Shown here: in pieces, positions 4,401-40,611 of the stretch
Position numbering within the stretch: the stretch's first letter is position 1
How the letters are laid out: each line of letters starts with the position of its first letter
NCBI GenBank assembly: GCA_002716045.1
Contig: PAZC01000011.1
Span: 152,029-193,836 of the forward strand
Length of the DNA: 41,808 nt
Source of the DNA: Opitutia bacterium
GTDB lineage: Bacteria; Verrucomicrobiota; Verrucomicrobiia; Opitutales; Seribacteraceae
Reading direction: 5' to 3'
The notes under the pieces: model-generated
Database searches by the model: none
What the model saw: the letters and a program-made list of their open reading frames with translations, nothing else
What the model was told of the DNA's origin: nothing
Position numbers and translations under genes: made by a program

Positions 4401-6893
4401 GTTCTCGGTTCCCACAGTCTCACCAACACCGGCTTGTTTGAGCCGAGCAATCTCACCGTCGGCTTGGTTCAACTTCGCTTTTAACTCGGCAATCAATTCA
4501 GCTCCTTCGCCGGTTACGTCATGGAACTGACCCCTGGCTAATTCCAGTTGATTCTGAGTATCTTTAAGCTGTTTCTCCAGAGAAGAAATACGAGTGGCTG
4601 CTTGACGCTGAACGGATTCCTTCGCTTCCTTTGCCAAGAGTGACTCCACTTTGGCTTGCTCCAATTCATCGCGCAATTGAGCGGACAGGGCGTTAGCTTG
4701 ATCGACGTTTACGCTCTGAACGGATTCGGTTGAGCGAAGAACAGCGTTTAGCTCGGCCAAAGTGGTGCTCATCGAGTCAACTTCCTTGAGTTGATTCTGC
4801 AAGTCAGCTGCTTGAGCAGCTATCCTGCGCAGCTCATCGTCCTTGTTGGCTAACAGTTCGTCTTTTTCCTTCACTTCATTCAAGACAACTTCCTTGCTAC
4901 GGCGAGAAGCCTCCAACTCAACTTGAAGATCTCGAATCAACCTAGCCGCTTCCATCCTTTCCTTGTCGATTTCACCAGAAAGTTGCTGCATCCGGTTTTG
5001 AGCCGCACCCAAGTCGGCATCCATAATCTCTATGACGTCAGAACCCTGATTCTGGGCATCAGCAGCTTGACGAAGGACTTGCTGTGTAACGGACAATTCA
5101 TTTTCCAAACCCTTCACCAAATCGGAGAATTCTAGTTCCTTGCGGGCCATGTCCACTTGGGCAAGATCAAGTTCGTCGCGAGATTGTTGCAATTGATCCT
5201 CCAAGTCAGCAACTTGCTTGGATAAGGAAGTTCTTACCTGAACCTGCTCTGCCCGAGCTTGCTCAAGGGCCAGCTTGGTGCCATTCAAGCTACGTATAAG
5301 TTCATTGACGCGCTCGGGATTAGACCCGGTGATGGGAGGGGTTTTACCTCCAGCAATTTGGCTTTCCAAATTAGCGAGTTGTTGCTCGAGGTCTTCCTTG
5401 CCAGAGAGATCGGCTCGTAGTCGCATAATTTCACCAAATGCCTTCTGCAGTTCACTTTTAAGCTGTGTCGAGCCAGATCCACTTTCCAAACTCTGCCGTT
5501 GCAAGGCGAGCAATTGAGTTTTTGTTCGGTTCAATTCCTCTTCCAATTCCAACATGCTGACAGCATCCCGGCCTTCGACGTTGGCCAATGCCTTGACGCG
5601 AATTAATTCTGCTTTGGTACTTTCCAAATCGGCGCCCAAAGTATTGATGACCGAGGCGGACTTGATTTTTTCCGCATTCAAAGATTCGCGAGCTTGGGTC
5701 AACTCGGCTTTGGCGGCAGACAATTCTTGTTCCAGTCGAACCACCATACGGTTCATGCCCTCAACACCCGAGATTCCCTCATTCTTCGATTGCAACAAAG
5801 ACGCTCTCTGACGCTCCAAATCACCAACCAATTTATTTGATTCCTCCAACTTCATTTGCATGGACAAAATTTGGCGAAAAGCTTGCTTGAGTTCATTTCG
5901 TAGCTTCTCCACATCTTCGTTCAAGCTGGCCTGCAATCCTTGAGATGCATCCACCTCGTCTTTCAGCTTACGGATAATATCTTCGGATTCCGCACGCCCT
6001 CCTTGATTGCGTCCCGCATCAATGTCAAGTTCGCCAATCTCAGGCTTCAAGCGAGGATCACTCGCCCCACCTTGCTTATCAGCAATCAAATCGATAGCGG
6101 CATCCAAATTGTTTCTGAGTTCGGCGGCATCCAGTTCATTACCTCGACCAACAGCTCGAGCAACCTCTTGGGCATCAGTCACTCCTTGACTGGCAGCGGC
6201 AAGGATTGCCTCAATGCCAGCAACTTCATCAAGCACAGTTTGCCCAAGACGCGAAGATTCATTCAGCGAATCGGCAATCGCGTCATGAGTATCCGTAAGA
6301 TTGTCCTGCAGGAGCGTAATCGCAGGCAAGGCTTCCTCGGGCGAAGCACCGCCGGCAAGCGAATCGGCAAAGATGCCTTCTGTTGCCTTTAACTTGTTCT
6401 CCAAGGCATCTAACTTGCGAATCGCCTCCACCTTTCCATTGGCGATGTTTTGCTCTCGCACTTTCAAACGGGACAACCCTTCGTTGACTTGGTTTTGCAA
6501 ACGGGTCAATTCGGTGACTCGATCGGCATCATTGGCAATGACTCTTTGGGCCAAGCTCAATTCGTCCTTGGAACGCTCCAAATCCTTCCGCATGCGCTGA
6601 AGCTTGGCTTGGGCGAGGCGATCAGCTTCGCTGTTGGCTTGCTTGGCACGAGCCAAGGCTCTTCGCGTGGTAGCCAAGTCCGCCTGCAGTCGCTTGATAG
6701 GATCGGCTGCCGCTGAAGACCCGCCAGATTCACCTCCAGGCAATGGAGGGAGGGCACCTCCGGGGAGCGACGGGGGAGATTCCTCAGGGGGATCTTCCGC
6801 AAGCTGGCTGAACGCCAAGCTTCCCAGTCCAATTAGCACGGCGCCAATTCCAAGGATAAAACGCCAAGAACGGGAGGGAACGAGCTTTCTCAT
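1476..6893 (-). CDS. Giant exported coiled-coil protein with C-terminal beta domain
   Basis: 1805 residues. The N-terminus (MRKLVPSRSWRF, then a hydrophobic stretch to about residue 30) is a signal peptide or anchor, followed by a Pro/Gly-rich segment at 35-60. Residues about 65-1570 are almost continuous heptad-rich Glu/Lys/Leu/Ala/Gln sequence, predicting a very long coiled coil broken by short Gly/Pro loops (for example near 515-525 and 1146-1160). A 16-residue motif of the form [QE]LxxA(x)3[IVM]xx[LM]xxxL recurs about seven times, starting near 334, 481, 835, 1111, 1202, 1283 and 1415. A Pro/Arg/Ser-rich linker (about 1575-1650) leads to a folded C-terminal domain (about 1655-1805) whose end, NGLARLQNLPAGEYFITG, resembles carboxypeptidase-regulatory or Ig-like beta domains. 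There are no Walker motifs, so it is not an SMC ATPase despite the likely similarity hits. A structural envelope role is inference. The gene ends in TAG and appears monocistronic. Confidence 0.8.
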   Translation of the reverse strand: MRKLVPSRSWRFILGIGAVLIGLGSLAFSQLAEDPPEESPPSLPGGALPPLPGGESGGSSAAADPIKRLQADLATTRRALARAKQANSEADRLAQAKLQRMRKDLERSKDELSLAQRVIANDADRVTELTRLQNQVNEGLSRLKVREQNIANGKVEAIRKLDALENKLKATEGIFADSLAGGASPEEALPAITLLQDNLTDTHDAIADSLNESSRLGQTVLDEVAGIEAILAAASQGVTDAQEVARAVGRGNELDAAELRNNLDAAIDLIADKQGGASDPRLKPEIGELDIDAGRNQGGRAESEDIIRKLKDEVDASQGLQASLNEDVEKLRNELKQAFRQILSMQMKLEESNKLVGDLERQRASLLQSKNEGISGVEGMNRMVVRLEQELSAAKAELTQARESLNAEKIKSASVINTLGADLESTKAELIRVKALANVEGRDAVSMLELEEELNRTKTQLLALQRQSLESGSGSTQLKSELQKAFGEIMRLRADLSGKEDLEQQLANLESQIAGGKTPPITGSNPERVNELIRSLNGTKLALEQARAEQVQVRTSLSKQVADLEDQLQQSRDELDLAQVDMARKELEFSDLVKGLENELSVTQQVLRQAADAQNQGSDVIEIMDADLGAAQNRMQQLSGEIDKERMEAARLIRDLQVELEASRRSKEVVLNEVKEKDELLANKDDELRRIAAQAADLQNQLKEVDSMSTTLAELNAVLRSTESVQSVNVDQANALSAQLRDELEQAKVESLLAKEAKESVQRQAATRISSLEKQLKDTQNQLELARGQFHDVTGEGAELIAELKAKLNQADGEIARLKQAGVGETVGTENLASQLQEALGTIQVLQQNLSESESVNAEVDDLRLRLATAMESKMNDQEREDAQVETLRKKMQTLEMDLAMAQQAQSNDMVNSRQLFSKLNDELKASREKIAALQSRSGQSEASTAADIADLEEELARTKADKLDAERRMHDLLKGKSESVAALERELVLTKTKLDELSAGGQGTGTSQAHVATLEKLLADTKAELDDLKEREGADGSAARALDLENQLAETQKRLNALLLQAREGNPSTTGSPEVVKALELQLGDARVALSELQNALIARDKENTEIEIQLEKALANMMDMQMAGNDAVLRQELDDLKRQLALAKGMPVNPVSPAPAEPNEADAAALALLRQEIDNLKKDLATSLQSSEKPSPAQIKLQSELEAATGQIIDLQTELSASKKKLQDITDLEAARTAGDDSAVAELSKRLQLMTDAIEDLKKNKEKTEEALSRKEKDAAALDDELEKSFLAMQKLKDEKDALAFDQKALNERIAGLEDLNAKLTAANKASQQSSENDGLLKRERDDLFRRNLELQTGLEKYKAEVRRLQQSLATPRESIGDIASMQDKILSLESQLQISKTSDATSRGDFDRVSTQLKDAMRQVMVLETNLAQAEGRIAQLQNTVPIRTVSPTISRTAENSTTKSLRDEVLRLRAELEAAQAASGSRSQAEDRLRDTSMKLLAAQSELERANQRVAILQDQSSQVEARRRSDVEREKAANQMVTLLNDKLKREEAKALALQEGLRKAREVIASLRGEPGAPSIDPGPFTRRSPGLSNPPSRTTSFTPRITTFDSPVRTPPSLQPRPLPSRRSIDDWRTRTRVSPAPTSEGVSFRPSEPVGLTVDRGNAEVDFEVTVQFLNNQIKPASNVEFFLTKERDIEDIVARAGIRLPSKISSAAELWARSIHRGYSYPGVAAKIRNALSQSSIARFKTNANGLARLQNLPAGEYFITGASPLGAVGVVWSKPIQVKDGSKVSLDVASADFAK

Positions 6894-7157: not shown

Positions 7158-8702
7158 CTAGAAGTTTTCGCCGATTGATCCCTGGTAGATCCCCAAGCCG
7201 ATAATTGCAATGACCACTAGCATCAAAACTAGGGTCACGGGAAAGGAAATCACGATTGCCGACAACTTGGCTCGGCGCTGCTCCTCGACCTCATCAAAAG
7301 CTTGCAAGGGTGGAAAGATTGCCTGACGAATCCATGCAAAGTAATAATAGATGGAGATGACGACACCAATTAACATAACTCCGAATAAGCCATGCAACCC
7401 CGCCTGAAAAATAACGACAAAGAGCAGCAATTTCCCGATAAATCCAGCTAGTGGAGGAATGCCAGCCAATGAACCTAAGCTCGTTGCCAAGACGAAAGCC
7501 AAGAAAGGCTGTTTCTGGGCTAGGGAAGAATACCCGGATAGCGGTTGGTCAGAATCATCATCCGAGGGAACCAAGCTCATGACACCGAAAACTCCGTAGG
7601 AAGCCAACAAATATGTGAGCAAGTAAAAGGCAATGGCCCAAAATACTCTATGTTCGGGCACCTCCGGATGCATTGCTGCAACAATACCAACCAAAAGGTA
7701 CCCTGCATGAGCCACGCCAGACAGGCCCATCAAGCGCTTCACGTTGCGCTGGGTTAGAGCACCCAGGTTTCCCATCAAAATAGTGAGCGCTGCTACAACG
7801 GAGAGAGCGGGCATCAAGAAATCGCTCATGCCAGCCAAAGGACCCGAAACCAAGTTATAAAGAACAATGAAACCAGCTGACTTTGAAGCAACGGCCAAAT
7901 AGGCCGAAACGGCGGTTGGAGCTCCCTGATAAACATCGGGAACCCATGCCTGAAACGGAACGGCTCCAAGCTTGAAAGCCAAGCCTGCCAACAAAAAGGC
8001 TACTCCTGCCAGCAAAAGCGGATGATCCGGATGAGCTGCGCTAACGCTTCCCATCCACGAGAATCCAAGCAGATCCGGTGTGGATGCCAAGGAAAGCGCG
8101 GAATCTTACATGGACGAAAAATTGCCTGAAGCCCCATATAGAAGGGTTATGCCGAAAAGCAAGATAGCTGAACTCATCGCCCCGAAAATCAGGTATTTCA
8201 AGCCAGCTTCCAAAGAGTAAGCACTACCGCGATGGTAACCGACCAAAACATAAAAACAAACCGCTACCATCTCTAATGAAACAAACAACATCAGGAAGTG
8301 ATTGCTTTGAACCAGAAGCATCATGCCAGCCGCGGCCAGAGAGGTAATGGCATGAAATTCAGTGGTAGGCAACCTAAGCCTACGAAGACACGGAGTGGCG
8401 AAAAGAGAAGTCAGCAAGGCGCAAGCACTGAAAAAACAACGCATGACATCACCGCGATAGCCTTGATGAAGCAAGCCGTTGAAGGTAGTGTTGGAAGGGT
8501 TGGGATCAAAGGAAAGATAATTCAGGATGAGGTAAAGGAAGATCCCGCCTTGCATCGAGTAGGCAAACCAATCACTTGGTGCCTGACCCTCTTTCCGAAA
8601 AGCCTCGCGAATCAACAAAAGCAAGGAACCGCATGCCAAGAAAATTTCTGGAACCAACAGGGTCCAATCATTTGCCTCAGCATATGTCTTGAAAGCATCC
8701 AT
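7158..8702 (-). pseudogene. nuoN: NADH-quinone oxidoreductase subunit N, with in-frame TAA
   Basis: Membrane-arm, antiporter-like subunit of respiratory complex I. The frame runs 515 codons from MDAFKTYAEANDW (ATG at 8702, one base after the nuoM stop) to a TAG at 7158, a normal NuoN length. One codon, number 199 (8106-8108), is TAA. The sequence before it (LLFGITLLYGASGNFSSM) and after it (DSALSLASTPDLLGF, then GLAFKLGAVPFQAWVPDVY) stays in the same frame and is recognisably NuoN on both sides, with the proton-channel lysine region and many membrane helices intact. There is therefore no indel, only a nonsense codon in a loop between helices. TAA is one substitution from AAA, CAA or GAA. It may be a sequencing error, a recent null allele or a read-through site; the sequence alone cannot tell. 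A downstream restart would have to use TTG at 8090. Confidence 0.85.
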
Positions 8703-8703
8703 T

Positions 8704-10242
8704 TTATGGCTGCCTCCCTTGCCCATCAATAAGTTCAATGGAAAACTTGTGGCTCACTTCAGCATCAACGGGGTCTGCAATTGTTCGAGGCCAAATCCCA
8801 ATCCAAACCAAGGCGATCAACAAGACAAAGGCGGGTATGCGTTCGGTTGTAGTCAAATCCTTGACGGGATGATCCTTTTCTCGCTCAACCAAAGCTTTTG
8901 ATGGTTCGCCGAAAAGAATCCTGGAAATCGCCCGCAACCCGAAAAGGGTAGAAATCACGACACCTAAAAGAGCCAAGGCCAAGGTGAGGTCCTTTCCTCC
9001 ATCGGCGGCAATCGAGAGGAACACACCGAATTCGCCCCAAAAATTCGCGAAACCCGGAAGGCCAATGACAGCCAAAATACAAGCAATGAAAAAGCAGGCA
9101 AAAACTGGGATTTAGGAAGCAAGCCCACCCATTTCAGACATAACGGATGTTCCTGTTCGCTGCCAAAGATAACGCTCAAGCAAAAACCAAAGCGCCACAG
9201 CAAGACCATGTCCCATCATCAAGAGAACTGCGGCTGGAATACCCATGCTGGCTCCCATGGCGATCCCAAGAAAGCAGTAACCCATGTGCATGACGGAACT
9301 GTATCCGATCAAGCGTTTCAAATCGGTTTGGGCCAAGGAAACCAACCCTATCAACACAACATTACCCAAAGCCAGCCAAACCAAGAGCTCACCCCACCCT
9401 TGCATACCAACTGGAAGTAATGGCGCAGCTACTTGAACAAAGCCATAAAGACCAAATTTCTTGAGCACTCCCGCGTGCAACATGGAAACTGAAGTTGGAG
9501 CCGCTTGGTATCCTCTAGGCGCCCAGGTGTGAAAGGGGAAAAGAGAAACCAAGATACCGAAACCAAAGAGAAGCATAGGGAAAATCCACAACTGCACACC
9601 CTTGTCCAAAGGTGTTTGTCTCAAATGTTCAGCCAAGCTAGCTAAATCAAAGGAGCTGAGTCCCGAAGAGACGTACAATGCAATCAGGCCACCGAGAGAA
9701 AGCAAGGCGCCCAGGGTGAGGTAAATCGTTATCTCAACGGCTGCCCCTCGACCTTCCTTCCCTCCTTGCAGGCCTATCAATATAAAAGTGGGGATCAGAG
9801 CCAATTCGTGAGCGAAATAGAAAAAGAACACATCGACAGAGGCAAAGACCCCCATTAGTCCTGCTTGCATCAAGGCAAGCAATCCCATGCAAGCACGCGA
9901 TTCAACCATAGGTGAATTCAGAGCCTGCCAACCAGCTGCAAATCCAACGATTCCAGCCAGCGCGAAGAGCGGCATGGAAATTCCGTTCAAACCAAGGCGA
10001 AAGGCAATCCCCAGTTTGCGCAAACCAGTGTCCTCCCATTCCAAAACAAAACGATATCCGTTTAAGGCAACTTCAGCGTCTTGAAACCGAAACAGGGCCC
10101 AAATAGCCGCGAATGCGGGTACCCCAAAGGTCAGAATGGCCAATCCACGGCTCGAACCGAGACCAATGAAAAACAGTCCAGCCGTCACCAAGGGCACGAA
10201 AATGGCCAAAGCAAGGATTGATTGGTCTAGTTCAGCACCCAT
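8704..10242 (-). pseudogene. nuoM: NADH-quinone oxidoreductase subunit M, with in-frame TAA
   Basis: Membrane-arm, antiporter-like proton-pumping subunit of complex I. The frame has 513 codons from MGAELDQSILAL (ATG at 10242, one base after the nuoL stop) to a TAA at 8704, matching the usual length of about 500 residues. Expected motifs are present: the essential-glutamate helix (FFYFAHELALIPTF) and FHTWAPRGYQAAPTSVS. Codon 377 (9112-9114) is TAA inside the conserved segment EMGGLAS-stop-IPVFACFF, then GLPGFANFWGEF. Homologues normally carry a Lys or Arg there, so the likely ancestral codon is AAA. Both halves are in the same frame, so this is a single nonsense codon, not a frameshift. The truncated product would lack the last 136 residues, including the final helices. 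As with nuoN, error, pseudogenisation and read-through remain open. Confidence 0.85.
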
Positions 10243-10243
10243 A

Positions 10244-12079
10244 TCACCACTCCAAACAACCGCCAGCGTAAGCGAGCAATGCAACCAACCCCCCAAGAAA
10301 CCACAAGGCATAGCTTCGAATGCCTCCACGATGAGCGAAACCCGTCGCCAAACCAAATAAGGCCGTGATCCCGGCAACTCCACGGACCATCAATCCGGAA
10401 ATAAACAAGAGCTCCAAGGCTTCAAACACCTTGGCGATAGTCTTCAGTGGCCGGCGAAAACAAAAGTCATAGAATTCATCAAAGAAAAGACGGGAATGAC
10501 AGAGCCTGAAGAAGACGTTGGCTCTTTCCGCCAGAGGATCCGAATCCTTGGTTTCGGAATAGAAATTCCAAGAGCCCCAAAGCCCAAAAATCCATGCCAA
10601 GGAACCGAAGGTCATGACAAACAAATGGCCGCTTGAGTCGTGGACAAACGCGAGTTCGGCAGAAAATACCTGACTCAACTCATTGGGCCAGACAAACGAA
10701 AAGCCGCCAAAGATGGCGAACACAGCCAAAACGACCAAAGGAATAGTTACTACGGATTCGCTCTCCACGGCTGACTTGGCCGACTTGGATCGGGACGATC
10801 CATGAAACACCAACCAATACAGGCGACCCATGTAAAATGCAGTCAGCAAGGCACCAGCCAACAACATCGAGAAAACAGGGATACTGTCTTCGTAAGCAGC
10901 TAGCAACATGGCGTCTTTGCTAAAGAAACCGGAAGTGAGGGTGACACCGGATATTGCTAATACACCGAGAAGGAAAGTACCTGAGGTCCATGGCATTCGC
11001 TTACGAAGCCCGCCCATTTTAAAAATGTCTTGTTCGTGATGCATGGCCATTATAACCGAGCCAGCGCCAAGGAAAAGCAATGCCTTGAAAAAGGCATGGG
11101 TTGTCAAGTGAAACATGGCCAAACCAGGCATTCCTACCCCAACGGTGGCGGCCATGTAGCCGAGTTGGGATAGCGTGGAATAAGCCAACACTTTCTTGAT
11201 GTCAGATTGAACCAAGGCGCAAAATCCAGCATACAATGCCATAGCCGCTCCAAGCAATGCGATCAAGGTAGTGACCTCGGGAACGAGAAGGAAATCAATC
11301 CTGACCAGAAGATAGATTCCAGCAGCCACCATAGTTGCGGCGTGGATGAGGGCGGAAATGGGTGTGGGGCCAGCCATGGCATCGGGCAACCAGACATGCA
11401 AGGGGAACTGAGCGGACTTCGCCAAGAAACCACAAATCAGTAGAAAACCCAGTCCGGCCGTGACTAGTTCCGGGTGCAGAGGAACGACCTTTGCCAACTC
11501 CGTGAATTCAAGGGTCCCGAAACGCGCTTGGGTCAAGGCAATGCCCATGAGAAAACCGATGTCACCTAAGCGATTTACAACAAGAGCTTTCTTCGATGCC
11601 GCGGCGGATTCTTCGGCATGAAAGTAATGAGCGATCAGCATATAAGAGCTGAATCCAACCAATTCCCAAAAGATGAAAAGCATGGCAAGATTGTCTGCCA
11701 CCACGATGCCAAGCATCGAAAACATAAAGATGGACAAGCCTCCGAAGAAGCGACTCTTGGCCGGATCCTCCCGCATATAACCTAGACTGAACACATGTAT
11801 CCAAAATCCGACGAAGCTTACAACAAAGAGGAGCAGGCGGGCTTCTGCATCCAGAAGGAATCCAAATGACAGCTGCAAATCCCCGAGGGACAACCAAGAA
11901 ACTTTTCCCATGGCCGACTCGCTGTCTGCCAAAATGACACTCACAGAGATGAGCATAACCAAACCGGCAGCACCCGTGGAAACCTTGGCCGCGAGTTCAC
12001 CGTGCCGCCGCAAGAAAAACAGGATGATCACCGCAGAGACGAGCGGTATCAAAAGAATCGTCGAGATCAAGCCTTCCAT
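10244..12079 (-). CDS. nuoL: NADH-quinone oxidoreductase subunit L
   Basis: Distal antiporter-like subunit of the complex I membrane arm, 611 residues, which is the family length. I start it at MEGLISTILLIPL (ATG at 12079), one base after the nuoK stop; a longer frame reaching 12214 would only overlap nuoK. Recognisable NuoL features are the essential-glutamate segment FIFWELVGFSSYMLIAHY, FPLHVWLPDAMAGPTPISA followed by HAATMVAAGIYLL, and the lysine helix around SDIKKVLAYSTLSQLGYM. The C-terminal part carries the extra helices that form the long lateral helix region in this family. It is intact, unlike the next two genes, nuoM and nuoN, with which it is translationally close-packed. It ends in TGA. 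Confidence 0.96.
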   Translation of the reverse strand: MEGLISTILLIPLVSAVIILFFLRRHGELAAKVSTGAAGLVMLISVSVILADSESAMGKVSWLSLGDLQLSFGFLLDAEARLLLFVVSFVGFWIHVFSLGYMREDPAKSRFFGGLSIFMFSMLGIVVADNLAMLFIFWELVGFSSYMLIAHYFHAEESAAASKKALVVNRLGDIGFLMGIALTQARFGTLEFTELAKVVPLHPELVTAGLGFLLICGFLAKSAQFPLHVWLPDAMAGPTPISALIHAATMVAAGIYLLVRIDFLLVPEVTTLIALLGAAMALYAGFCALVQSDIKKVLAYSTLSQLGYMAATVGVGMPGLAMFHLTTHAFFKALLFLGAGSVIMAMHHEQDIFKMGGLRKRMPWTSGTFLLGVLAISGVTLTSGFFSKDAMLLAAYEDSIPVFSMLLAGALLTAFYMGRLYWLVFHGSSRSKSAKSAVESESVVTIPLVVLAVFAIFGGFSFVWPNELSQVFSAELAFVHDSSGHLFVMTFGSLAWIFGLWGSWNFYSETKDSDPLAERANVFFRLCHSRLFFDEFYDFCFRRPLKTIAKVFEALELLFISGLMVRGVAGITALFGLATGFAHRGGIRSYALWFLGGLVALLAYAGGCLEW

Positions 12080-12080
12080 T

Positions 12081-12392
12081 TCAGCGACCCAACAAATTGA
12101 GATCCTGCACGAGGAGACTCTTCCTCTTACGATACAAGGCGACAAGGATAGCCAAACCGATAGCAACCTCGGCAGCAGCCACGGTGATTGTGAAAAAGGT
12201 AAGGATAACTCCATCCATGTTGGCGTAGTATCGGGCGAAGGCCACCAACGCCAAGTTCACGGCGTTAAGCATTAATTCGAGACACATCAGCATGAGTAGG
12301 GCATCCCGGCGTATAAGAACACCCAGCAAGCCAATGCAGAACAGAGCCGAAGCCACTGCCAAATATTCACCGAGTCCAACTATACCGTCCAT
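12081..12392 (-). CDS. nuoK: NADH-quinone oxidoreductase subunit K
   Basis: Small membrane subunit of complex I, 103 residues with three transmembrane helices. It contains the conserved segment [19 protein letters not shown], including the helix-2 glutamate of the central proton-transfer axis, and a second conserved glutamate in [18 protein letters not shown]. The ATG follows the nuoJ TAG with no gap, and the TGA is one base from the nuoL start, which is typical of tightly coupled operon translation. The length matches the usual 100-105 residues. Confidence 0.97.
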
Positions 12393-12941
12393 CTAGGAGT
12401 CCTCTTGACCTTCGGCCATATCGATTTTTTGGCGCCGTCCAAGCAAGATGACGCCAACCATAGCAACCAACAAGAGGAAGCCTGTCACTTGAATCGGCAA
12501 CATGTACTTGGTCAGCAATGCAAAACCGAACGCTTTGGCTCCCTTGGCAAAAGCCAGAGGGTTTTCCGCAGTTGGCAGTGCTCCAACTTCCGGAGGTTGG
12601 ACGGCGCCTTGCCCCGCCCAGTGCAGGCCAATGGCAACTACCACGGCAGTCACAATCATCCCGGCGACGGCAGCAAATAGCTTTGGTTGAGCACGTTGTT
12701 CCTTATCCACGTTCAACATCATGATAACGAAAAGAAAAAGCACCATGATCGCACCCGCATAAACAAGAACCTGCAAGGCAGCCAAAAAGAAAGCGTCCAG
12801 CGTAAGGAATAAAACCGCCAAGGAAACCATTGACAAAATCATGCAGAGGGCGGCGTTAACCGGATTGCTACTGAAGACAACGGCAACCCCTCCGAATATC
12901 GTCAAAGTTGCAAAAACATAGAATACCCACTCAACGCCCAT
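12393..12941 (-). CDS. nuoJ: NADH-quinone oxidoreductase subunit J
   Basis: Membrane subunit of complex I next to the quinone cavity and NuoK, 182 residues with five predicted helices. Characteristic sequences are SSNPVNAALCMILSMVSLA and ALQVLVYAGAIMVLFLFVIM, the latter containing the pi-bulge helix typical of NuoJ. A loop of about 30 residues (QPPEVGALPTAENPLAF) precedes the last helix. It starts 3 bases after the nuoI stop. Confidence 0.95.
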   Translation of the reverse strand: MGVEWVFYVFATLTIFGGVAVVFSSNPVNAALCMILSMVSLAVLFLTLDAFFLAALQVLVYAGAIMVLFLFVIMMLNVDKEQRAQPKLFAAVAGMIVTAVVVAIGLHWAGQGAVQPPEVGALPTAENPLAFAKGAKAFGFALLTKYMLPIQVTGFLLLVAMVGVILLGRRQKIDMAEGQEDS

Positions 12942-12944
12942 GGA

Positions 12945-13517
12945 CTACTCTTCCTCCAGATTTTCAAGTGGCTTGACTAAACCTGACTTCTCCGCCGCCA
13001 CCCGCTTTTTGTCCCATTTGAAGTGTTGGTCCGGTAAGACCCCACCCATTTCATATAACTTATTCTTCTTGAAACGCAGCTCTTCTCGAGAATAGCCGTT
13101 AAGGGAAAAGGTATTCTGCAAAAAAATCGCTTCTTCGGGGCAAACTTCCTCGCAATAGCCACAATATATGCAACGCAACATATCGATCTCGAATTCCTCG
13201 GGAGCTTTTTCAACGTGAATTCGATCTTCCTCCTCGGCAGAAATTTCGCCAGGGGTGATACGAATGGCCTTGGGAGGACAAACGAATTCGCACAATTGGC
13301 AAGAAACGCACTTTTCTCGCTCATTGGGATCCTTGACCAAGGTAGGTACACCTCGATAGGCGTCTGGTATGGCAGGTCTTTCGTCAGGATACTGCAAGGT
13401 CACCTTGCGGCGAAATAGATTGATCAAGGTGGTCTTTAGCCCTGACAGGATTGGTGGCAAATAAATACGTTCGGCCCAAGTGAGGGGCTTGCGTTCGATT
13501 ACCTTCGTCTTGGCCAT
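12945..13517 (-). CDS. nuoI: NADH-quinone oxidoreductase subunit I, two 4Fe-4S
   Basis: Peripheral ferredoxin-like subunit of complex I, 190 residues, that carries electrons to NuoB. Two complete 4Fe-4S motifs are visible: CVSCQLCEFVCP (about residues 72-83) and CIYCGYCEEVCP (about 116-127), each C-x2-C-x2-C-x3-C-P. The N-terminal amphipathic region (ILSGLKTTLINLFRRKVTLQYP) docks on the membrane arm in this family. It lies between nuoH and nuoJ, as in the canonical order. Start ATG at 13517, 7 bases after the nuoH stop. Confidence 0.97.
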   Translation of the reverse strand: MAKTKVIERKPLTWAERIYLPPILSGLKTTLINLFRRKVTLQYPDERPAIPDAYRGVPTLVKDPNEREKCVSCQLCEFVCPPKAIRITPGEISAEEEDRIHVEKAPEEFEIDMLRCIYCGYCEEVCPEEAIFLQNTFSLNGYSREELRFKKNKLYEMGGVLPDQHFKWDKKRVAAEKSGLVKPLENLEEE

Positions 13518-13524
13518 TGAATTA

Positions 13525-14637
13525 CTAGGCTTTCGGAAAGTCCATCCAGGAAGCTAGGGCGGCATAGAAGATCAGGTTGGCAAGCGCCAATGGAAGTAAT
13601 TTCCCCCAACCGAGCTTCATTACTTGATCATACCGGAAGCGAGGCAAAGTCCATCGCACCCAAATAAAGAGAAAGACTATCGAGCAGATCTTGAATAAAA
13701 ACCAGACAACGGACAAGACCGCTCCAAGCCAACCCACGGGCCAAGGATCATCCATGCCTGGAAGAAAGTGCCAACCTCCGAGAAAAAGAATTGAGAAGAT
13801 GGCTGAACCAACAATTACATGAGCATATTCGGCTATGAAGAAAATGCCAAATTTGAAGGCACCGTACTCAGTATGAAATCCCCCCACTAGATCGGTCTCG
13901 GATTCGGGCATGTCAAAGGGTAATCGATTAGTCTCGGCAAACAAGGCGACGAGGAAAACCAAAGCTGAAACAGGTTGGAAAAAAACCATCCACAAACCAT
14001 TGGCCTGCCAATCCATCACCTGAACCAAACTAAGCCCTCCTGTTGAACCAGGTTGATTAACCCAGAGAAAAACTGGCAAGATGGAAAGCCCCATGGCGAG
14101 TTCATATGAAATCATTTGAGCGGAAGCTCGAACTCCTCCCAGAAAGGGGTATTTGCTGTTTGATGCCCAACCCGCAAGAACAATGCCATATACACCGAGA
14201 GAAGAAAGTGCGAAAATAAACAAAATCCCGACATCCAAATCCGTCAAAATCAGAGGAATTGAGGATGTCCCATCGTCCCTCGTATATTGACCGAAAGGCA
14301 CCAATGCGAGGATGCTCAATGCAGGCACCAAAGAAAGAATGGGAGCCAAATGATAATGAAACCGATTAACGTGCCCTGGGCAAATTTCCTCTTTAAACAA
14401 GAATTTCAAGCCATCTGCCAACGGCTGAAAAATGCCTAAGTTACGAAGCATTGGGCCGATGACCGGCAAATCTCCGATGATGGGTAGGGAAGTCTTGTTT
14501 GGACCAACCCTTCCTTGTATCCAAGCTGACACTTTACGCTCAGCTAGAACAGTGTATCCGGCGAAGGTCAACAAGGCGCCTAGCACCAAGATCCCGTAGA
14601 TCACTTTAATTGAAAGAATTTCCCAACTCGTTTCCAT
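13525..14637 (-). CDS. nuoH: NADH-quinone oxidoreductase subunit H
   Basis: Membrane subunit that forms most of the quinone-binding cavity at the junction of the two complex I arms, 370 residues with about eight or nine helices. Family motifs include ERKVSAWIQGRVGPNKT, QPLADGLKFLFKEEICP, GWASNSKYPFLGGVRASAQ and the acidic E-rich loop ETNRLPFDMPESETDLVGG followed by EYGAFKFGIFFIAEY. All are intact. It begins with METSWEILS, 6 bases after the nuoG TGA. Confidence 0.97.
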   Translation of the reverse strand: METSWEILSIKVIYGILVLGALLTFAGYTVLAERKVSAWIQGRVGPNKTSLPIIGDLPVIGPMLRNLGIFQPLADGLKFLFKEEICPGHVNRFHYHLAPILSLVPALSILALVPFGQYTRDDGTSSIPLILTDLDVGILFIFALSSLGVYGIVLAGWASNSKYPFLGGVRASAQMISYELAMGLSILPVFLWVNQPGSTGGLSLVQVMDWQANGLWMVFFQPVSALVFLVALFAETNRLPFDMPESETDLVGGFHTEYGAFKFGIFFIAEYAHVIVGSAIFSILFLGGWHFLPGMDDPWPVGWLGAVLSVVWFLFKICSIVFLFIWVRWTLPRFRYDQVMKLGWGKLLPLALANLIFYAALASWMDFPKA

Positions 14638-14643
14638 CTTAGC

Positions 14644-16362
14644 TCAACGGGTTTTCCGGGATTTGCTCTTTGTCTCTTTCTTGAAGTCAGCCAAATCAAA
14701 ATGAAGTCCTTTCCTCTCGACGTAGGCCAAGGAACGAAATTTGCCCGGATCCAAGAGTACGCCATCCAAGGGAGTGGTTTCGAAGAATTGTCCCTTGAGG
14801 ACGGATTCTTTCTGGTCATTTATTTCCAACCACAATTCGTTCAAGCTAATGGAAGGAACCTCCACTCCTCGGAGCTCGGCAAGCAAACGATTCAAGAGCA
14901 ACAAGTCGGGCAAAGTCCCTGATGGACCTGGCACTGCCTGCAGGAACTTTTGCAAGCGAAACTGCTGGTTAATAAAAGAACCGCTACGCTCGAAGGAAGT
15001 TTGAGCCGGAAGCACGACGCGAGCCTTGCGGCTAGTTTGATTCTCAAGCGTACCAAGATACACCACTTGAACCTGTTTCAATTGTTCCGCCGTCAACCCC
15101 GCTTCGAACAAATCCTCTCTGATCGAAAAAACGGTTTTTATCTCACCCTTGGAAATTCGGCGCCCCAAGGCTTTTAGGTTTTCAGACGGGTAGCGTGAAA
15201 TAAAACCAGTGGCCAAGGCACCCCGTAGATTGGGCGTGCGATCAGCCGATAGAAGCAAGCCATCCTCCTCTCCGATATGTCCCCGAACAAAAGTGGGAGC
15301 CTCAAGGTAATTGGCAATTTTCTTGAGCAAGAACTGCTCCTCAACGCTACAAGAGCCAGACCCCACAACGGCCACGGCCCCCTTGGAAAGAAAGTTGCTT
15401 GCTACGGCCAAAGCTTCATCCAAAGAAACGTCCTTTTGGGCGACACGAAAAGTTCGCAAGCGATTCTCGTCCTCGATCTCCCTGAACAATTCCCGTCCAC
15501 TGTCTGGCATCCAAGTATCGTTGACGGCATCGTTTCGTCTCGGGGTAATGCGATGTACCACGCCTTCTCGACTTGAAACCGTAATGTTGCAACCAACGCT
15601 GCTCTCGGTACAGATGGCGGGAGTCTCCTTGAGAAACCATGCACGCATGCTGAATCGAAAGCTTTTGCTGGTAAGGGCGCCCACTGGGCATATGTCGACG
15701 GTATTGAGGGAGTAATTGTTTTCCAGTTGTTTGCCAGGGTAGCAAGTAAGCGTGGAATGACTTCCACGATCAACAAAGCCCAATACATCGTCATCGGCGA
15801 CTTCTTGGCAAAATCGTATGCACCTAGAGCAAAGGATACAGCGTTCATCGTCTAGCATCACTCTGGGGCCAAGGTCCACCTGCTTCGGCTTAACGTTCTT
15901 CTCTTCTACAAATCGACTGTAACCTCGCCCGTAGTCTAGGGCAAATTCCTGAAGACCACACTCTCCGGCTTGATCGCAAATCGGACAGTCGAGGGGATGA
16001 TTAACGAGCAAAAACTCCATTACTCCATTGCGACAATCTAGCACTTCCTGCGAATCCGTTTTCACATGCATTCCAGGGCCTACGTTGGTACCGCAACCGA
16101 TAACTGGCTTCGGCATCCAACCAATCTTTTGCTCACCATCTTTGTCCAATAAAGGTTCACCGGTTGTTCGATCTTTCATGGGCATACCCATTTCGACCAA
16201 GCACATACGGCAATTGCCAACGACAGATAGTTTGGGATGGTAGCAATAGTGAGGAATCTCCTTGCCATGAAGAGAAGCCGCTTCAATCAGGTTGATGCCC
16301 GCCGGCACTTGAACGAATTCACCGTCCAAGTTAATGGTCAACATGTTTTCGGCTTCACTCAT
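14644..16362 (-). CDS. nuoG: NADH-quinone oxidoreductase subunit G, short form
   Basis: Iron-sulfur subunit of the complex I electron-input arm, 572 residues, shorter than the roughly 680-900 of many homologues. Visible in order: a 2Fe-2S ferredoxin domain with cysteines 40, 51, 54 and 90; the His-Cys3 4Fe-4S motif H122, C126, C129, C135 (NHPLDCPICDQAGECGL); and a Cys4 cluster from CILCSRC (175, 178, 181) with CPVGAL (225). A molybdopterin-oxidoreductase-like domain follows from about 247 but is cut down, and it keeps only two cysteines (CTESSVGC) where the extra N7 cluster would need four, so N7 is probably absent. The ATG overlaps the nuoEF stop as ATGA, suggesting coupled translation. The C-terminus is basic. 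Confidence 0.95.
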   Translation of the reverse strand: MSEAENMLTINLDGEFVQVPAGINLIEAASLHGKEIPHYCYHPKLSVVGNCRMCLVEMGMPMKDRTTGEPLLDKDGEQKIGWMPKPVIGCGTNVGPGMHVKTDSQEVLDCRNGVMEFLLVNHPLDCPICDQAGECGLQEFALDYGRGYSRFVEEKNVKPKQVDLGPRVMLDDERCILCSRCIRFCQEVADDDVLGFVDRGSHSTLTCYPGKQLENNYSLNTVDICPVGALTSKSFRFSMRAWFLKETPAICTESSVGCNITVSSREGVVHRITPRRNDAVNDTWMPDSGRELFREIEDENRLRTFRVAQKDVSLDEALAVASNFLSKGAVAVVGSGSCSVEEQFLLKKIANYLEAPTFVRGHIGEEDGLLLSADRTPNLRGALATGFISRYPSENLKALGRRISKGEIKTVFSIREDLFEAGLTAEQLKQVQVVYLGTLENQTSRKARVVLPAQTSFERSGSFINQQFRLQKFLQAVPGPSGTLPDLLLLNRLLAELRGVEVPSISLNELWLEINDQKESVLKGQFFETTPLDGVLLDPGKFRSLAYVERKGLHFDLADFKKETKSKSRKTR

Positions 16363-18278
16363 TTGGTCACCTTTTCACTAGCGGGAGCAAAAGGTTCGCT
16401 AACCTCAAGTTTCTGAGGGCTGGCCTTGGCAATGAAATCGTCCTTGAATTTTGAGACAAAGCTTTGCACGGGCCATGCGCAAGCCTCGCCAAAGGCACAA
16501 ATAGTTCGGCCCTCGATTTGGTTGGCGATGGACAAAAGCAAGTCAGCATCCTCTTTTCTGGCTTCACCACGAACCATCCGGGCAGTCACTTTTTTCATCC
16601 ACAGGGAACCTTCGCGACAGGGCGTGCATTGCCCACAACTCTCATGGGCATAAAAGGCAGAGACGTTGGCAAGGGCTTCCACCATGTCCACACTGTCGTC
16701 CATTACGATAATCCCTCCTGAACCAGACATGGAGCCAGCTGCCATGGGACCATCAAAGTCCAATGGAATGTCCTCTAGACTCCAATCAAACTCGGTGCCA
16801 TCTTTCAAACGACCTTGGTATCTCTCACCGGCACGCAAAACTTTTGCAGATGATCCGCCAGGGATGACGGCCTTGAGGGTACGACCAGGCAGCAAGCCCC
16901 CGCAGACTTCGTGAATCATTTGGCCAAGGGTTATCGCACCATTCTCGAACTCATAATACCCGGGACGCTTGACCTGCCCGGAGACACACCAAAGCCGGGT
17001 ACCGGTGTTTCCCGCATGTCCGAGCTTGGCATATTTCGAGCCCCCCATGTCCACGATGTGCCTGACATTACAGAGCGTCTCCACGTTATTCACGATGGTT
17101 GGACATTGGTACAAGCCAAGTGCAGCGGGAAAGTATGGCGGCTTAATGCGAGGGTATGGGCGCTTGCCCTCTAGAGACTCGATCAGCCCAGTCTCCTCGC
17201 CACAAATGTAAGCGCCAGCGCCCCGGTGTACAATAATTTCACAGGAATACTTGGATCCTGCTACACGATCACCGACAAAACCTTTGGCTTTGGCTTCGGC
17301 AATTGCTCTTTCCAAAATTCTGGCTCCCTCAAAAAACTCTCCGCGAATATAAATGAAAGCTAATTCTGCCTGAATTGCGTAAGCTGCAATCATCATGCCC
17401 TCAATCAATTGATGAGGATCCTTGTAAATGATTTGGCGATCCTTGAAGGTTCCAGGTTCAGATTCGTCGGCATTACAGATCAAATAAATGGGCTTGCCCG
17501 AGCGGCGATCCAAAAACTTCCATTTCATTCCAGCAGGGAAACCGGCTCCACCCCGACCTCGGACTCCAGATGCTTCAACCTCGGAGCAAAGATCTTCGGG
17601 CTTCCGCCTGACTGCGCCTTTGAGGATTTTGTAACCGCCATTCTTGAGATAAGTTCCGAGATCGTTTCTATACCCTGAGCTATCCCCTTTGCTCATAATG
17701 ATTTTCTTTTCACGAGGAGCTGAGCGAGGAGTCTTTTCGTGAGGCTCGAAAATACCCTTATTTACCTTCGTTTCGTAACTAGTAAATTCGGAATCGGTTT
17801 CAAGCGTGCCCTCCCTTAGGCATTGGGCGAAGTTCAGGGCGTTTTCACCCTCCACGTTCTCATAGGTTTCCTCATTCACGATAACCACTGGCCCAGTGCC
17901 GCAAGAGGCTTGGCACTCGACGAATTCAATCGAGTAATCGCCATTCTCGGAAACTTCTCCTTCCTTGCATTCCAATGAATCCTCCAAGGCTTTGCAGGTG
18001 CCGTGGGAACCTCGTAAGGCACAAGATAGGGTTCGGCAGACGCGAACATGCGTTTTGCCCAAGGGTTTGCGCCTGAACATAGGATAAAAGGTAACTAGTT
18101 CGTAGACGTTTATGGGTTGAAGTTTCAACTTGGAGGCGACCCATTCTATCGCTTCGTCGCTTAGATAACCCTGATCCTCCTGAATCAAGTGAAGCAAAGG
18201 CAATACGGCGCTTCGCTTGACCGGATAGCTCTTGATAGCTTCCTGTATGCGCTTATTGGTTTGCTTGCTCAATTTCAT
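16359..18278 (-). CDS. nuoEF: Fused NADH-quinone oxidoreductase subunits E and F
   Basis: NADH-oxidising module of complex I in one 639-residue chain. Residues 1 to about 160 are NuoE: a thioredoxin-like 2Fe-2S domain with C81, C86 (CRTLSC), C122 and C126 (CQASC). A charged linker of about 35 residues leads to a complete NuoF from about 195: the glycine-rich GVRGRGGAGFPAGMKWKF, the FMN/NADH segment NADESEPGTFKDR, GAYICGEETGLIESLEG, and the N3 4Fe-4S ligands C548, C551, C554 (CGQCTPC) and C594. No stop codon or Shine-Dalgarno site separates the halves at the internal Met-Ser-Lys-Gly, so this is a true fusion rather than two overlapping genes. I start at ATG 18278 (MKLSKQTNKR), 7 bases after nuoD; a GTG at 18296 would add six residues and overlap nuoD. 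Confidence 0.95.
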   Translation of the reverse strand: MKLSKQTNKRIQEAIKSYPVKRSAVLPLLHLIQEDQGYLSDEAIEWVASKLKLQPINVYELVTFYPMFRRKPLGKTHVRVCRTLSCALRGSHGTCKALEDSLECKEGEVSENGDYSIEFVECQASCGTGPVVIVNEETYENVEGENALNFAQCLREGTLETDSEFTSYETKVNKGIFEPHEKTPRSAPREKKIIMSKGDSSGYRNDLGTYLKNGGYKILKGAVRRKPEDLCSEVEASGVRGRGGAGFPAGMKWKFLDRRSGKPIYLICNADESEPGTFKDRQIIYKDPHQLIEGMMIAAYAIQAELAFIYIRGEFFEGARILERAIAEAKAKGFVGDRVAGSKYSCEIIVHRGAGAYICGEETGLIESLEGKRPYPRIKPPYFPAALGLYQCPTIVNNVETLCNVRHIVDMGGSKYAKLGHAGNTGTRLWCVSGQVKRPGYYEFENGAITLGQMIHEVCGGLLPGRTLKAVIPGGSSAKVLRAGERYQGRLKDGTEFDWSLEDIPLDFDGPMAAGSMSGSGGIIVMDDSVDMVEALANVSAFYAHESCGQCTPCREGSLWMKKVTARMVRGEARKEDADLLLSIANQIEGRTICAFGEACAWPVQSFVSKFKDDFIAKASPQKLEVSEPFAPASEKVTK

Positions 18279-18285
18279 GGCAATA

Positions 18286-19524
18286 TCAGCGGTCACATTC
18301 CCCCATCACAAAATCGAGACTACCCAAAATGACCGTTGCATCCGTCAACATATGCCCGGGAAGCATTCTTTCCAAAATGCTGAGATTGCAGAAACTTGGA
18401 GCCCGAATCTTCAGCCTGTACGGTACTCCCCCACCCTTCGAGACAATAAAAAACCCGAGGGCACCCTTCGGATTTTCGGCCTCGAAATATACCTCACCCG
18501 CAGGCAACTGGGGCCCCTCCGTAACAATCATGAAATTTTGGATCAACTCCTCCATGCTAGTCATCACCTTGTCCTTTGACGGTGGGAAAATTTTTCTGGC
18601 ATCCTCGGCGTACCAAAGGCCCGAAGGAAAGGTCTCAACGATTTGCCTTACTATACGTAAGCTCTGACGAACCTCTTCCATTCGAACCAAATAACGATCA
18701 TAGCAATCACCAGTGGTTCCAATGGGTACATCAAAGTCGTAGTTTTCGTATCCACAGTAAGGACGATCCTTACGCAAATCAAAATCCACCCCGGTCGCCC
18801 TCAGGTTGGGTCCAGTCAATCCATAAGCCAAGGCATCCTCTCGAGATATGACTCCTATGCCTTCAGTGCGATCGATGAAGATACGATTACGCGTAAGCAA
18901 CTTGTCACAATCATCCAGCGCGGTCGGCAACTCTTCGCAAAATTTGCTCACGCGACCAAGCCAACCATCCGGTACGTCGCGGGCCACACCGCCAATTCGA
19001 GTGTAGCTGGTAGTAAAACGGGCTCCGGTTAATTCCTCGAACAAAGCATAAAGTTTCTCACGCTCAGTAAAGGTATAAAAAAATGGCGTCCAAGCACCAG
19101 CATCCATAGCATAAACGCCGATTCCAAGCAAATGACTGGAGATCCTCGCTAATTCGCAAACCAAAGCCCGAATAGCCTGACAACGTTCCGGCATTTCAAG
19201 GTCGGCCAATGACTCCACCGCCAAAGCGAAGGCGACGTTGTTGGCCAAAGGAGAAATGTAATCCAATCGATCAGTAAAGGTAACGAATTGGTTGTAGGTC
19301 ATATTCTCAGCTATCTTCTCATCACCTCGATGAAGATAGCCCACAACTGGTTCGCATTTGGAAATGACCTCGCCATCCAATTCCATCATTAATCTTAGAA
19401 CGCCATGGGTGGTTGGATGAGAAGGCCCAACGTTCAGGGCCATGCGATCATTGCCCATTTTCTCCCCTGCTTCACCACGGGCAGCAACGTCGCGGTACTC
19501 TATTTCCTCGGAGCGTATACTCAT
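18286..19524 (-). CDS. nuoD: NADH-quinone oxidoreductase subunit D (49 kDa)
   Basis: Quinone-site subunit of the complex I peripheral arm, related to the large subunit of NiFe hydrogenases, 412 residues. Family sequences include NVGPSHPTTHGVLRLMMELDGE, containing the conserved quinone-headgroup histidine, PVVGYLHRGDEKIAENMTYN, DRLDYISPLANN and the C-terminal LDFVMGECDR, in which the usual Val before Asp-Arg is replaced by Cys. The chosen ATG at 19524 overlaps the nuoC TGA as ATGA; a longer frame to 19551 lies wholly inside nuoC and is less likely. It ends in TGA at 18286. Confidence 0.96.
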   Translation of the reverse strand: MSIRSEEIEYRDVAARGEAGEKMGNDRMALNVGPSHPTTHGVLRLMMELDGEVISKCEPVVGYLHRGDEKIAENMTYNQFVTFTDRLDYISPLANNVAFALAVESLADLEMPERCQAIRALVCELARISSHLLGIGVYAMDAGAWTPFFYTFTEREKLYALFEELTGARFTTSYTRIGGVARDVPDGWLGRVSKFCEELPTALDDCDKLLTRNRIFIDRTEGIGVISREDALAYGLTGPNLRATGVDFDLRKDRPYCGYENYDFDVPIGTTGDCYDRYLVRMEEVRQSLRIVRQIVETFPSGLWYAEDARKIFPPSKDKVMTSMEELIQNFMIVTEGPQLPAGEVYFEAENPKGALGFFIVSKGGGVPYRLKIRAPSFCNLSILERMLPGHMLTDATVILGSLDFVMGECDR

Positions 19525-20135
19525 CTTGGCTTGCCACGCTCCTCTGTCCAAGATTGATCCTTTCCTCGGGGTTCGCTCTGACTAACGTGACCCTCGGAAG
19601 GGGCCACGAAGGGACCACCCATCATGGGGGCAGGCAATACGGATACTCCAGTATCCTCTGCGACGTCAGCTGCTGGTAGTTCAGTAGGCTCTCCGGCCAA
19701 GGGAAAATCCTTCCGTAAAGGAAAATGAGGATAACCATCCCACATCAGAATACGTTTCAAGTTGGGATGATTGCTGAAACGAATGCCAAACATGTCGAAC
19801 ACTTCACGCTCATGCCAATCCGCGCCTGGAAACAAAGTGGCCAGCGAAGGAATCTCGGGTTCAACGTTGTTCGAACAATCTATGACGATTCTCAAGTAGT
19901 TCTTGAAGGACAGAGAATAAAAATGGCAAACAGTTGAAAATCTAGGTGAAGACTCCTCGCCCCAATCCACCGCAGTGAGGTCAACAAGCAAATCGAAACC
20001 TTCTTTTTGGGCCAAGGCCTCTCCAAGTTCCAACAGGTTCGAGGCAGGGCAATTGAAGGCAATGCAATCTGCGGATTCTCTTGGTGAAAGAAAAGCAAAG
20101 CGTTTCTTAAATTTCTTGGTCCAATCGTTATCCAT
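19521..20135 (-). CDS. nuoC: NADH-quinone oxidoreductase subunit C (30 kDa)
   Basis: Peripheral-arm structural subunit of complex I, 204 residues. The family signature is clear: GADWHEREVFDMFGIRFSNHP, followed by RILMWDGYPHFPLRKDFPL, with a preceding LVDLTAVDWGEE. It starts at ATG 20135 (MDNDWTKKFK), 10 bases after nuoB, with GGGA upstream; a TTG one codon earlier is possible. The C-terminal 40 residues are a low-complexity tail. It is separate from nuoD, not fused as in enterobacteria. Confidence 0.95.
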   Translation of the reverse strand: MDNDWTKKFKKRFAFLSPRESADCIAFNCPASNLLELGEALAQKEGFDLLVDLTAVDWGEESSPRFSTVCHFYSLSFKNYLRIVIDCSNNVEPEIPSLATLFPGADWHEREVFDMFGIRFSNHPNLKRILMWDGYPHFPLRKDFPLAGEPTELPAADVAEDTGVSVLPAPMMGGPFVAPSEGHVSQSEPRGKDQSWTEERGKPR

Positions 20136-20145
20136 CAATCCCTAA

Positions 20146-20667
20146 TCACAGAGGTTCAACGGTCTTTTGAGCATCAGCAGGATCTATTGAGTTCTCGTAC
20201 CCAATCTTGTGCTGCAAACTGATCATGGCATCAAGCAAGGCTTCTGGTCTAGGCGGACAACCACTGACGTAAACGTCTACTGGCAGAATTCGATCGACTC
20301 CCTGCAAAACCGCATAAGAGCGATACATTCCACCTGAGGAAGCGCAGGCTCCCATGGCGACGACCCACTTCGGGTCGCCCATTTGATCATAGATGCGCCG
20401 TACGACCTCAGCCATTTTATAGGTCACCGTCCCAGCAACTATCATGCAATCAGCCTGTCTAGGTGAGAAGCGCATGACTTCCATGCCAAAACGGGAAACG
20501 TCAAATCTCGAAGACGCGGCAGCCATCAGCTCAATTGCGCAACAGGCCAAGCCCATGGGCATGGGCCAAACAGAGTGTCTGCGAATCCAGTTCACCACGG
20601 CATCGCGCCGGGTAACTATTATTTCCCCCTCGATTTTGCTGTCGTAGGCAATGGATTGGTCAAGCAT
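20146..20667 (-). CDS. nuoB: NADH-quinone oxidoreductase subunit B (PSST)
   Basis: Carries cluster N2, the last iron-sulfur centre before quinone, 173 residues from [10 protein letters not shown]. The N2 ligands are visible as the paired cysteines in [13 protein letters not shown], the cysteine in [11 protein letters not shown] or nearby [10 protein letters not shown], and the one in [14 protein letters not shown]. The quinone-facing segment [19 protein letters not shown] is intact. I prefer ATG 20667; an upstream in-frame start at 20754 would add a 29-residue leader not expected for the family. This is the first gene of the operon. The usual preceding gene, nuoA, is absent: only about 200 bases separate this start from the divergent tRNA-Ser. 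Confidence 0.95.
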
Positions 20668-20820
20668 ATGAGCACTTGATTTAAGAGGAGGAAAATAAAG
20701 AGCGCCCTTGCATATGCAAACTTCAAATCGTGCCTGTGCAAAGTATATTGCCAATCAATTGGGGAAATGGGTTGAAAGGCCTTAATTTTAGTTGTTTCCA
20801 TTAGGCAAGATCCTTTGGGA
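20668..20820 (-). promoter_or_regulatory. Leader region of the nuo operon
   Basis: The stretch in front of nuoB. On the minus strand it contains TATACT (at 20742-20747 on the plus strand), a possible -10 element that would start a transcript about 70 bases before the nuoB ATG, with no good -35 partner. A perfect 12-bp palindrome, TTGCATATGCAA, lies at 20708-20719 just downstream of it and could be a protein-binding site. No complete nuoA or other gene fits here. Confidence 0.3.
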
Positions 20821-24279: not shown

Positions 24280-25218
24280 TTATCTGTCGAAAATACGTCC
24301 TGGAAAGGATTTGGATGAAGGAGGTGCAGTAGAAGTTGGAAATCTAATGGGCGGACCTGGAACGACTGGCAATTCCTCCACTTGCAAAGAATCGTTTCGA
24401 GAAGGAGCAGGTGTACTCGAACCAGTTGCATTATCTGGAGATTTTACAATTGGTTCTATTTTGCCTACGGCGGTGTCTTTAGTACGGAAGTGTTCATTCG
24501 CCGGGAGGTAGGATACACCCAAAAACAAGTCTACCCGTGCGGACTCGCCAACCATTCTCTTGGATTGTTTGTTAGCCACGTTGGCTAATGCACGAGTGAA
24601 AGAAGGCGGATTACCAAAAAGGCGGAGCAACCTGGATGTCTGGATGAGTTGAGCCAAATCTAAATCAACGATTCTTCCAAACTTACCTTCGGAGTTACAC
24701 TCGATTCTTTGCCCAGGATCGAGCTTCATTTGTTTGCGACGCTTTTTGGAGGTAACGGTCACACAAATGTCACCAGTTAACGCAATAACCCGCAAACCGC
24801 CATCGGAAATAGTTTCGGCTAAGAACGCCCCCTTCCCGTAAAGTTGAAACGAGTGAAGGTCGGTAGACAGAATTAGTTCGGCTGATTTTCTCATGGGTTT
24901 GGCAAGAATAGCGCCATTACTCAATTTTATACCCCCATCAAGAGCCGAAAATGAAATGTTTTTGCCGAGACGCAGAGTCCATCCTCCTCCCAACAGTTCA
25001 AAACCTCCTTCACTAGAGCTTGTAATGTGGGCTGCAGGTGGCAGAAAACGGCCCTTGGCCAAAGGCACAGCCTTGTCACCTGGAACTTGAGACGACCCCT
25101 CGGTCACACCGGAAACAAGGTACATGGTGGCAGCATGCCCCTTGAGAATGGACCAATGGAAAATTGGTGAGAGCAAAAACAGGTATATGACGAAATTCTT
25201 AGCCAATTTAATCTTCAA
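24280..25218 (-). CDS. Secreted FecR-like domain protein
   Basis: 312 residues. An N-terminal hydrophobic stretch (about 8-30, ending GHAATM) is a signal peptide. Residues about 35-190 are rich in short beta strands (FELLGGGWTLRLGKNISFSA, FQLYGKGAFLAE, VIALTGDICVTVTS, LDPGQRIECN), the pattern of the periplasmic FecR-type fold, but without the N-terminal sigma-regulator segment or membrane helix expected of a true anti-sigma FecR. A Pro/Ser/Thr-rich tail follows from about 265. The start is a TTG at 25218, the only one keeping the signal peptide. It lies 66 bases downstream of ftsZ on the same strand and may be the last gene of that transcript; the stop is TAA. Partner and function are unknown. 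Confidence 0.65.
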   Translation of the reverse strand: MKIKLAKNFVIYLFLLSPIFHWSILKGHAATMYLVSGVTEGSSQVPGDKAVPLAKGRFLPPAAHITSSSEGGFELLGGGWTLRLGKNISFSALDGGIKLSNGAILAKPMRKSAELILSTDLHSFQLYGKGAFLAETISDGGLRVIALTGDICVTVTSKKRRKQMKLDPGQRIECNSEGKFGRIVDLDLAQLIQTSRLLRLFGNPPSFTRALANVANKQSKRMVGESARVDLFLGVSYLPANEHFRTKDTAVGKIEPIVKSPDNATGSSTPAPSRNDSLQVEELPVVPGPPIRFPTSTAPPSSKSFPGRIFDR

Positions 25219-26553: not shown

Positions 26554-26586
26554 GACATTCTTCTTGGTAAATCGTTGCTTGGTAGA

Positions 26587-27786: not shown

Positions 27787-27790
27787 GTCA

Positions 27791-31919: not shown

Positions 31920-31926
31920 GGCACCC

Positions 31927-34202: not shown

Positions 34203-34229
34203 TCAGAGGCCTCACCTTGGGCTTCCCGA

Positions 34230-35219: not shown

Positions 35220-35252
35220 GGTGTCTTCCTTGGTTGTGATAAAAGCTAATAA

Positions 35253-36548: not shown

Positions 36549-36549
36549 C

Positions 36550-40609: not shown

Positions 40610-40611
40610 AT

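Follow-up and report, generated by a model that had tools for sequence, protein, structure and literature searches.

In-frame TAA codons interrupt nuoM and nuoN in a complex I operon of an Opitutales draft genome

Results

Two adjacent complex I genes are interrupted by in-frame stops

The reading frames of nuoM and nuoN, two genes of one complex I operon, are each interrupted by an in-frame TAA codon relative to their intact orthologues. We favour, with modest confidence, the reading that a loss-of-function allele arose recently in this operon; a local error of consensus or assembly is the main rival. The case looks like ordinary recent enzyme loss or local assembly error, not a new reading of the genetic code.

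The window, meaning the whole 41,808-nucleotide stretch of DNA that was analysed, comprises positions 152029-193836 of contig C15 in a draft genome of 3.92 Mb and 60 contigs (93.9% complete, 6% contamination). The source bacterium is uncultured and probably marine; its relatives fall in Opitutales/Opitutia (Verrucomicrobiota), and many come from marine metagenomes. The features under study, all on the minus strand, are the following.

7158..8738 (minus): interrupted nuoN, matching TIGR01770
8109-8738 and 7158-8105 (minus): N-terminal and C-terminal parts of nuoN, matching TIGR01770 positions 2-184 and 199-467
8106..8108 (minus): in-frame TAA in nuoN, at residue 211 of the open reading frame starting at 8738, in a variable loop
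8704..10383 (minus): interrupted nuoM, both parts matching TIGR01972 contiguously
9115-10383 and 8704-9111 (minus): N-terminal and C-terminal parts of nuoM
9112..9114 (minus): in-frame TAA in nuoM, codon 377 counted from the ATG of MGAELDQ
10244..20754 (minus): remainder of the nuo operon, uninterrupted, with nuoL, K, J, I, H, G, fused nuoEF, nuoD, C and B

The plus strand reads TTA at 9112-9114, giving TAA on the minus strand in the nuoM frame. The part before the stop matches positions 1-364 of the TIGR01972 profile and the part after it positions 367-481; the nuoM frame is therefore continuous across the TAA, without an indel. These results bear out the original prediction, which had described an in-frame TAA at codon 377 with normal NuoM sequence on either side, no indel and a loss of 136 residues (136 of 512). 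With both parts counted, NuoM and NuoN cover TIGR01972 and TIGR01770, respectively, to near full length.

At the nuoM stop site most of the aligned homologues have Lys, several have Gln (CAA) and two have Arg. The expectation that homologues carry Lys or Arg here was thus right in that Lys is the commonest residue, but Gln comes second and Arg is confined to those two. An AAA-to-TAA change, previously taken to be the simplest, is one option and not uniquely so, given the CAA codons and the AAG found at this site in the same-genus relative G001. In the Opitutales relatives examined, nuoM is open, which answers the related-genome check proposed earlier, and none of the nuoM and nuoN copies that the searches found in relatives has such a stop.

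The nuoN stop was absent from the original prediction. It lies in a loop whose length and sequence vary among relatives. A single TAA seen in the relatives' second matches proved to belong to weak matches past gene ends; a direct search for nuoN found these genes open.

Within the remaining operon, nuoH, I, J and K were assigned from their order and size and from a comparison with relatives. The operon lacks nuoA, two copies of which lie elsewhere in the genome (contigs C14 and C9), and relatives likewise keep nuoA apart from the operon. The genes nuoE and nuoF are fused (16359-18296, minus strand) into a 645-residue gene matching TIGR01958 and then TIGR01959, to which the gene of G001 aligns over its full length. 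Elsewhere in the window, a 1805-residue open reading frame (1476-6893, minus strand) has no Pfam match at 1e-5. A 312-residue one (24280-25218, minus strand), likewise without a Pfam match, adjoins ftsZ in the cluster of cell-wall and division genes (25285-41781).

Internal stops are rare in the rest of the genome

The frequency of internal stops was assessed by comparing open reading frames of G001, the nearest relative compared, with about 0.7 Mb of the genome. This survey yielded 127 matches over approximately 52,000 codons, with 27 stops within the alignments. All but two of these lay in 5' extensions upstream of the probable start codon or where alignments ended, and the only genuine internal stops in the approximately 52,000 conserved codons were the nuoM and nuoN TAAs. 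In-frame TAA codons are therefore not common across conserved genes of this genome, and the nuoM TAA is more than a chance occurrence. A scan of codon usage, seeking stops flanked by coding sequence, had proved too weak and was replaced by the G001 comparison; it missed nuoM and nuoN because these membrane proteins score low.

Elsewhere in the genome, none of 107 sulfatase matches contained a stop, and one of 42 ABC matches did. The latter, an ABC transporter domain at C32:20508-20926 split by one TAA, is probably a decayed gene.

If stops were placed randomly over the surveyed codons, the probability of a second stop falling in the same gene pair would be approximately 0.02. The pairing points to a common cause, either lost selection on the operon or locally bad sequence.

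TAA remains a normal terminator in this genome

Recoding or readthrough of TAA, yielding full-length NuoM and NuoN, would fit several observations: frame and conserved sequence run on past both stops, both codons are TAA, and amino-acid changes are not strongly in excess beyond the stops. Against it, nuoM itself, murE and a PBP gene of the window all end in TAA. The genome encodes RF1 (in two copies, on near-duplicate contigs) and, on C15, another class-I release factor that is probably RF2, and the tRNA genes found in the genome have normal anticodons, none of which reads a stop. Relatives, moreover, have no stop at either site. We consider this reading highly improbable, and on the evidence of the terminators, release factors and tRNAs stop-codon reassignment is rejected. 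The same evidence contradicts the recoded codon that had been listed earlier beside an error and a null allele; the other two options stand.

Nor is it credible, save at the very lowest probability that we assign, that each gene yields two assembling fragments through translation restarting after the stop. The position of the nuoN stop in a variable loop would suit such split subunits, as would the hydrophobic stretch directly after the nuoM stop. The first in-frame start after the stop, in contrast, is a TTG in both genes, 5 codons further on in nuoN and 12 in nuoM, with no recognisable ribosome-binding site at either; the nuoM restart would fall inside the hydrophobic stretch, and no split subunits occur among the relatives examined. 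Because TAA terminates normally, release factors and normal tRNAs are present, and the TTG restarts lack a ribosome-binding site, recoding, readthrough and split subunits are all unlikely. Even a form of readthrough or subunit reassembly confined to this operon's antiporter genes, with complex I still working, we regard as very improbable.

Substitution counts suggest that constraint on the operon was normal until recently

Across the whole operon, substitutions peculiar to this genome at otherwise invariant columns numbered 11, versus 13 in G001. The absence of an operon-wide excess suggests normal constraint until recently. At columns conserved in at least 80% of sequences, nuoM and nuoN together had 23 changes in this genome versus 10 in G001, and the rest of the operon 39 versus 50 (p = 0.014 in a post hoc comparison); the same comparison at a 60% threshold was not significant (p = 0.18).

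Nonsense changes make up approximately 3% of random point changes, so two of them should usually be accompanied by dozens of missense changes. Since a strong missense excess is absent, the events were very recent, few, or artefacts. Two changes peculiar to this genome, T425I and L428F, are no more than four codons away from the nuoM stop. Local C-to-T hypermutation would fit three changes within five codons at this site, but the bias is absent elsewhere in nuoM, nuoN and the operon, and we rejected this explanation.

A local assembly error is the main rival

The normal constraint across the operon and the clustering of T425I and L428F beside the nuoM stop are also what an artefact could produce: the TAAs would stem from low coverage or a mixture of strains, and nuoM and nuoN would be open in the cells. 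The genome is a mixed-strain consensus with near-duplicate contigs and scattered Ns. Besides the fragmentation into 60 contigs and the 6% contamination, the roughly 0.7 Mb read contains hundreds of Ns that stand singly, often at a spacing of three bases, a pattern that polymorphic sites would leave when a consensus is merged, and several contigs are near-duplicates of 99.5-99.95% identity (C8, C55, C18, C6 and C39). Isolated Ns of this kind also occur in the records of relatives, some of which are part of marine metagenome series. Minimus2 was used to merge contigs in one large Tara Oceans project (PMC5769542), and this genome may have been made in the same way.

Other observations speak against an error. 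The window contains no Ns, the operon has no indels, and the other conserved genes surveyed are free of stops. The near-duplicate contigs differ at approximately 82 coding sites (about 52 synonymous and 30 missense), none of them nonsense. Overall, we hold an error to be a serious possibility, short of probable.

A null allele would be compatible with other NADH-oxidising enzymes

Under the favoured null-allele reading, the nonsense mutations would truncate two of the three antiporter-like subunits encoded by a 14-subunit-type complex I operon. NuoM would be cut before the segment aligned with E. coli NuoM residues 385-490, which contains E407, and NuoN after its first approximately 210 residues, at about E. 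coli residue 185 in the alignment, with over half of the protein missing. In E. coli, a change at NuoM E407 alone lowers proton pumping (PMC9271201). Judged from these alignments, neither fragment should form a working proton channel, and this complex I would be inactive; the earlier statement that the enzyme cannot be expected to work was reasonable, as the missing part aligns with the E407-bearing segment (PMC9271201).

NADH would be re-oxidised instead by an NDH-2 candidate encoded on C14 and possibly by the product of a second complex I operon. That operon, on contig C9 (within C9:80001-100000), is uninterrupted and contains nuoA, B, C, D, I, H, J, L, two NuoM-type genes in a row and nuoN, with nuoC, nuoI and nuoJ assigned by order and length only; it has no nuoEF of its own. 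With this operon and the NDH-2 candidate present, loss of the window operon could be survivable. An antiporter cluster on C50 resembles Mrp by order and size, and a search of the genome for Na+-NQR found none.

Set against a null allele are the mixed-strain nature of the assembly and the likely cost of the loss: the only NuoF copy in the genome is in the window operon, and most relatives keep this operon, so losing it should be costly. The additional stop in nuoN, the rarity of internal stops elsewhere, and the second operon and NDH-2 candidate nevertheless tilt the balance to a null allele. The stops in the assembly, their rarity, the open genes of relatives and the second operon are observed; the presence of the stops in living cells, the loss of activity and compensation by other enzymes are inferred.

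Discussion

If the stops are real, a marine Verrucomicrobiota lineage has recently given up an otherwise conserved NADH-driven proton pump while retaining another complex I and an NDH-2 candidate, which makes it a natural case in which to ask what this other complex I is for. Should the stops be errors, they illustrate that mixed-strain consensus genomes can yield convincing false null alleles. The finding is ordinary under either reading, and knowledge of complex I and of the genetic code is unchanged by both.

Three known systems offer comparisons. As in the NCBI codes that use TAA as a sense codon, an in-frame TAA occurs here in a conserved gene; unlike in those codes, TAA still terminates genes as usual, the genome encodes release factors, and none of the tRNA genes checked reads a stop. 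Nonsense null alleles of nuo genes in bacteria likewise involve single-base nonsense changes in genes that are otherwise intact, in cells that have further NADH dehydrogenases, whereas the present case affects two adjacent subunits in one uncultured draft genome and may not exist in living cells. Our literature search on nuoM nonsense alleles found no matching paper; complex I mutations are reported from laboratory evolution (PMC8795404). Rhodobacter sphaeroides, with two complex I isozymes, likewise has two separate nuo operons in one genome (PMC4859585). In our genome, by contrast, nuoEF is missing from the second operon, which contains two NuoM-type genes, and the first operon is interrupted; the R. 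sphaeroides isozymes are not redundant (PMC4859585).
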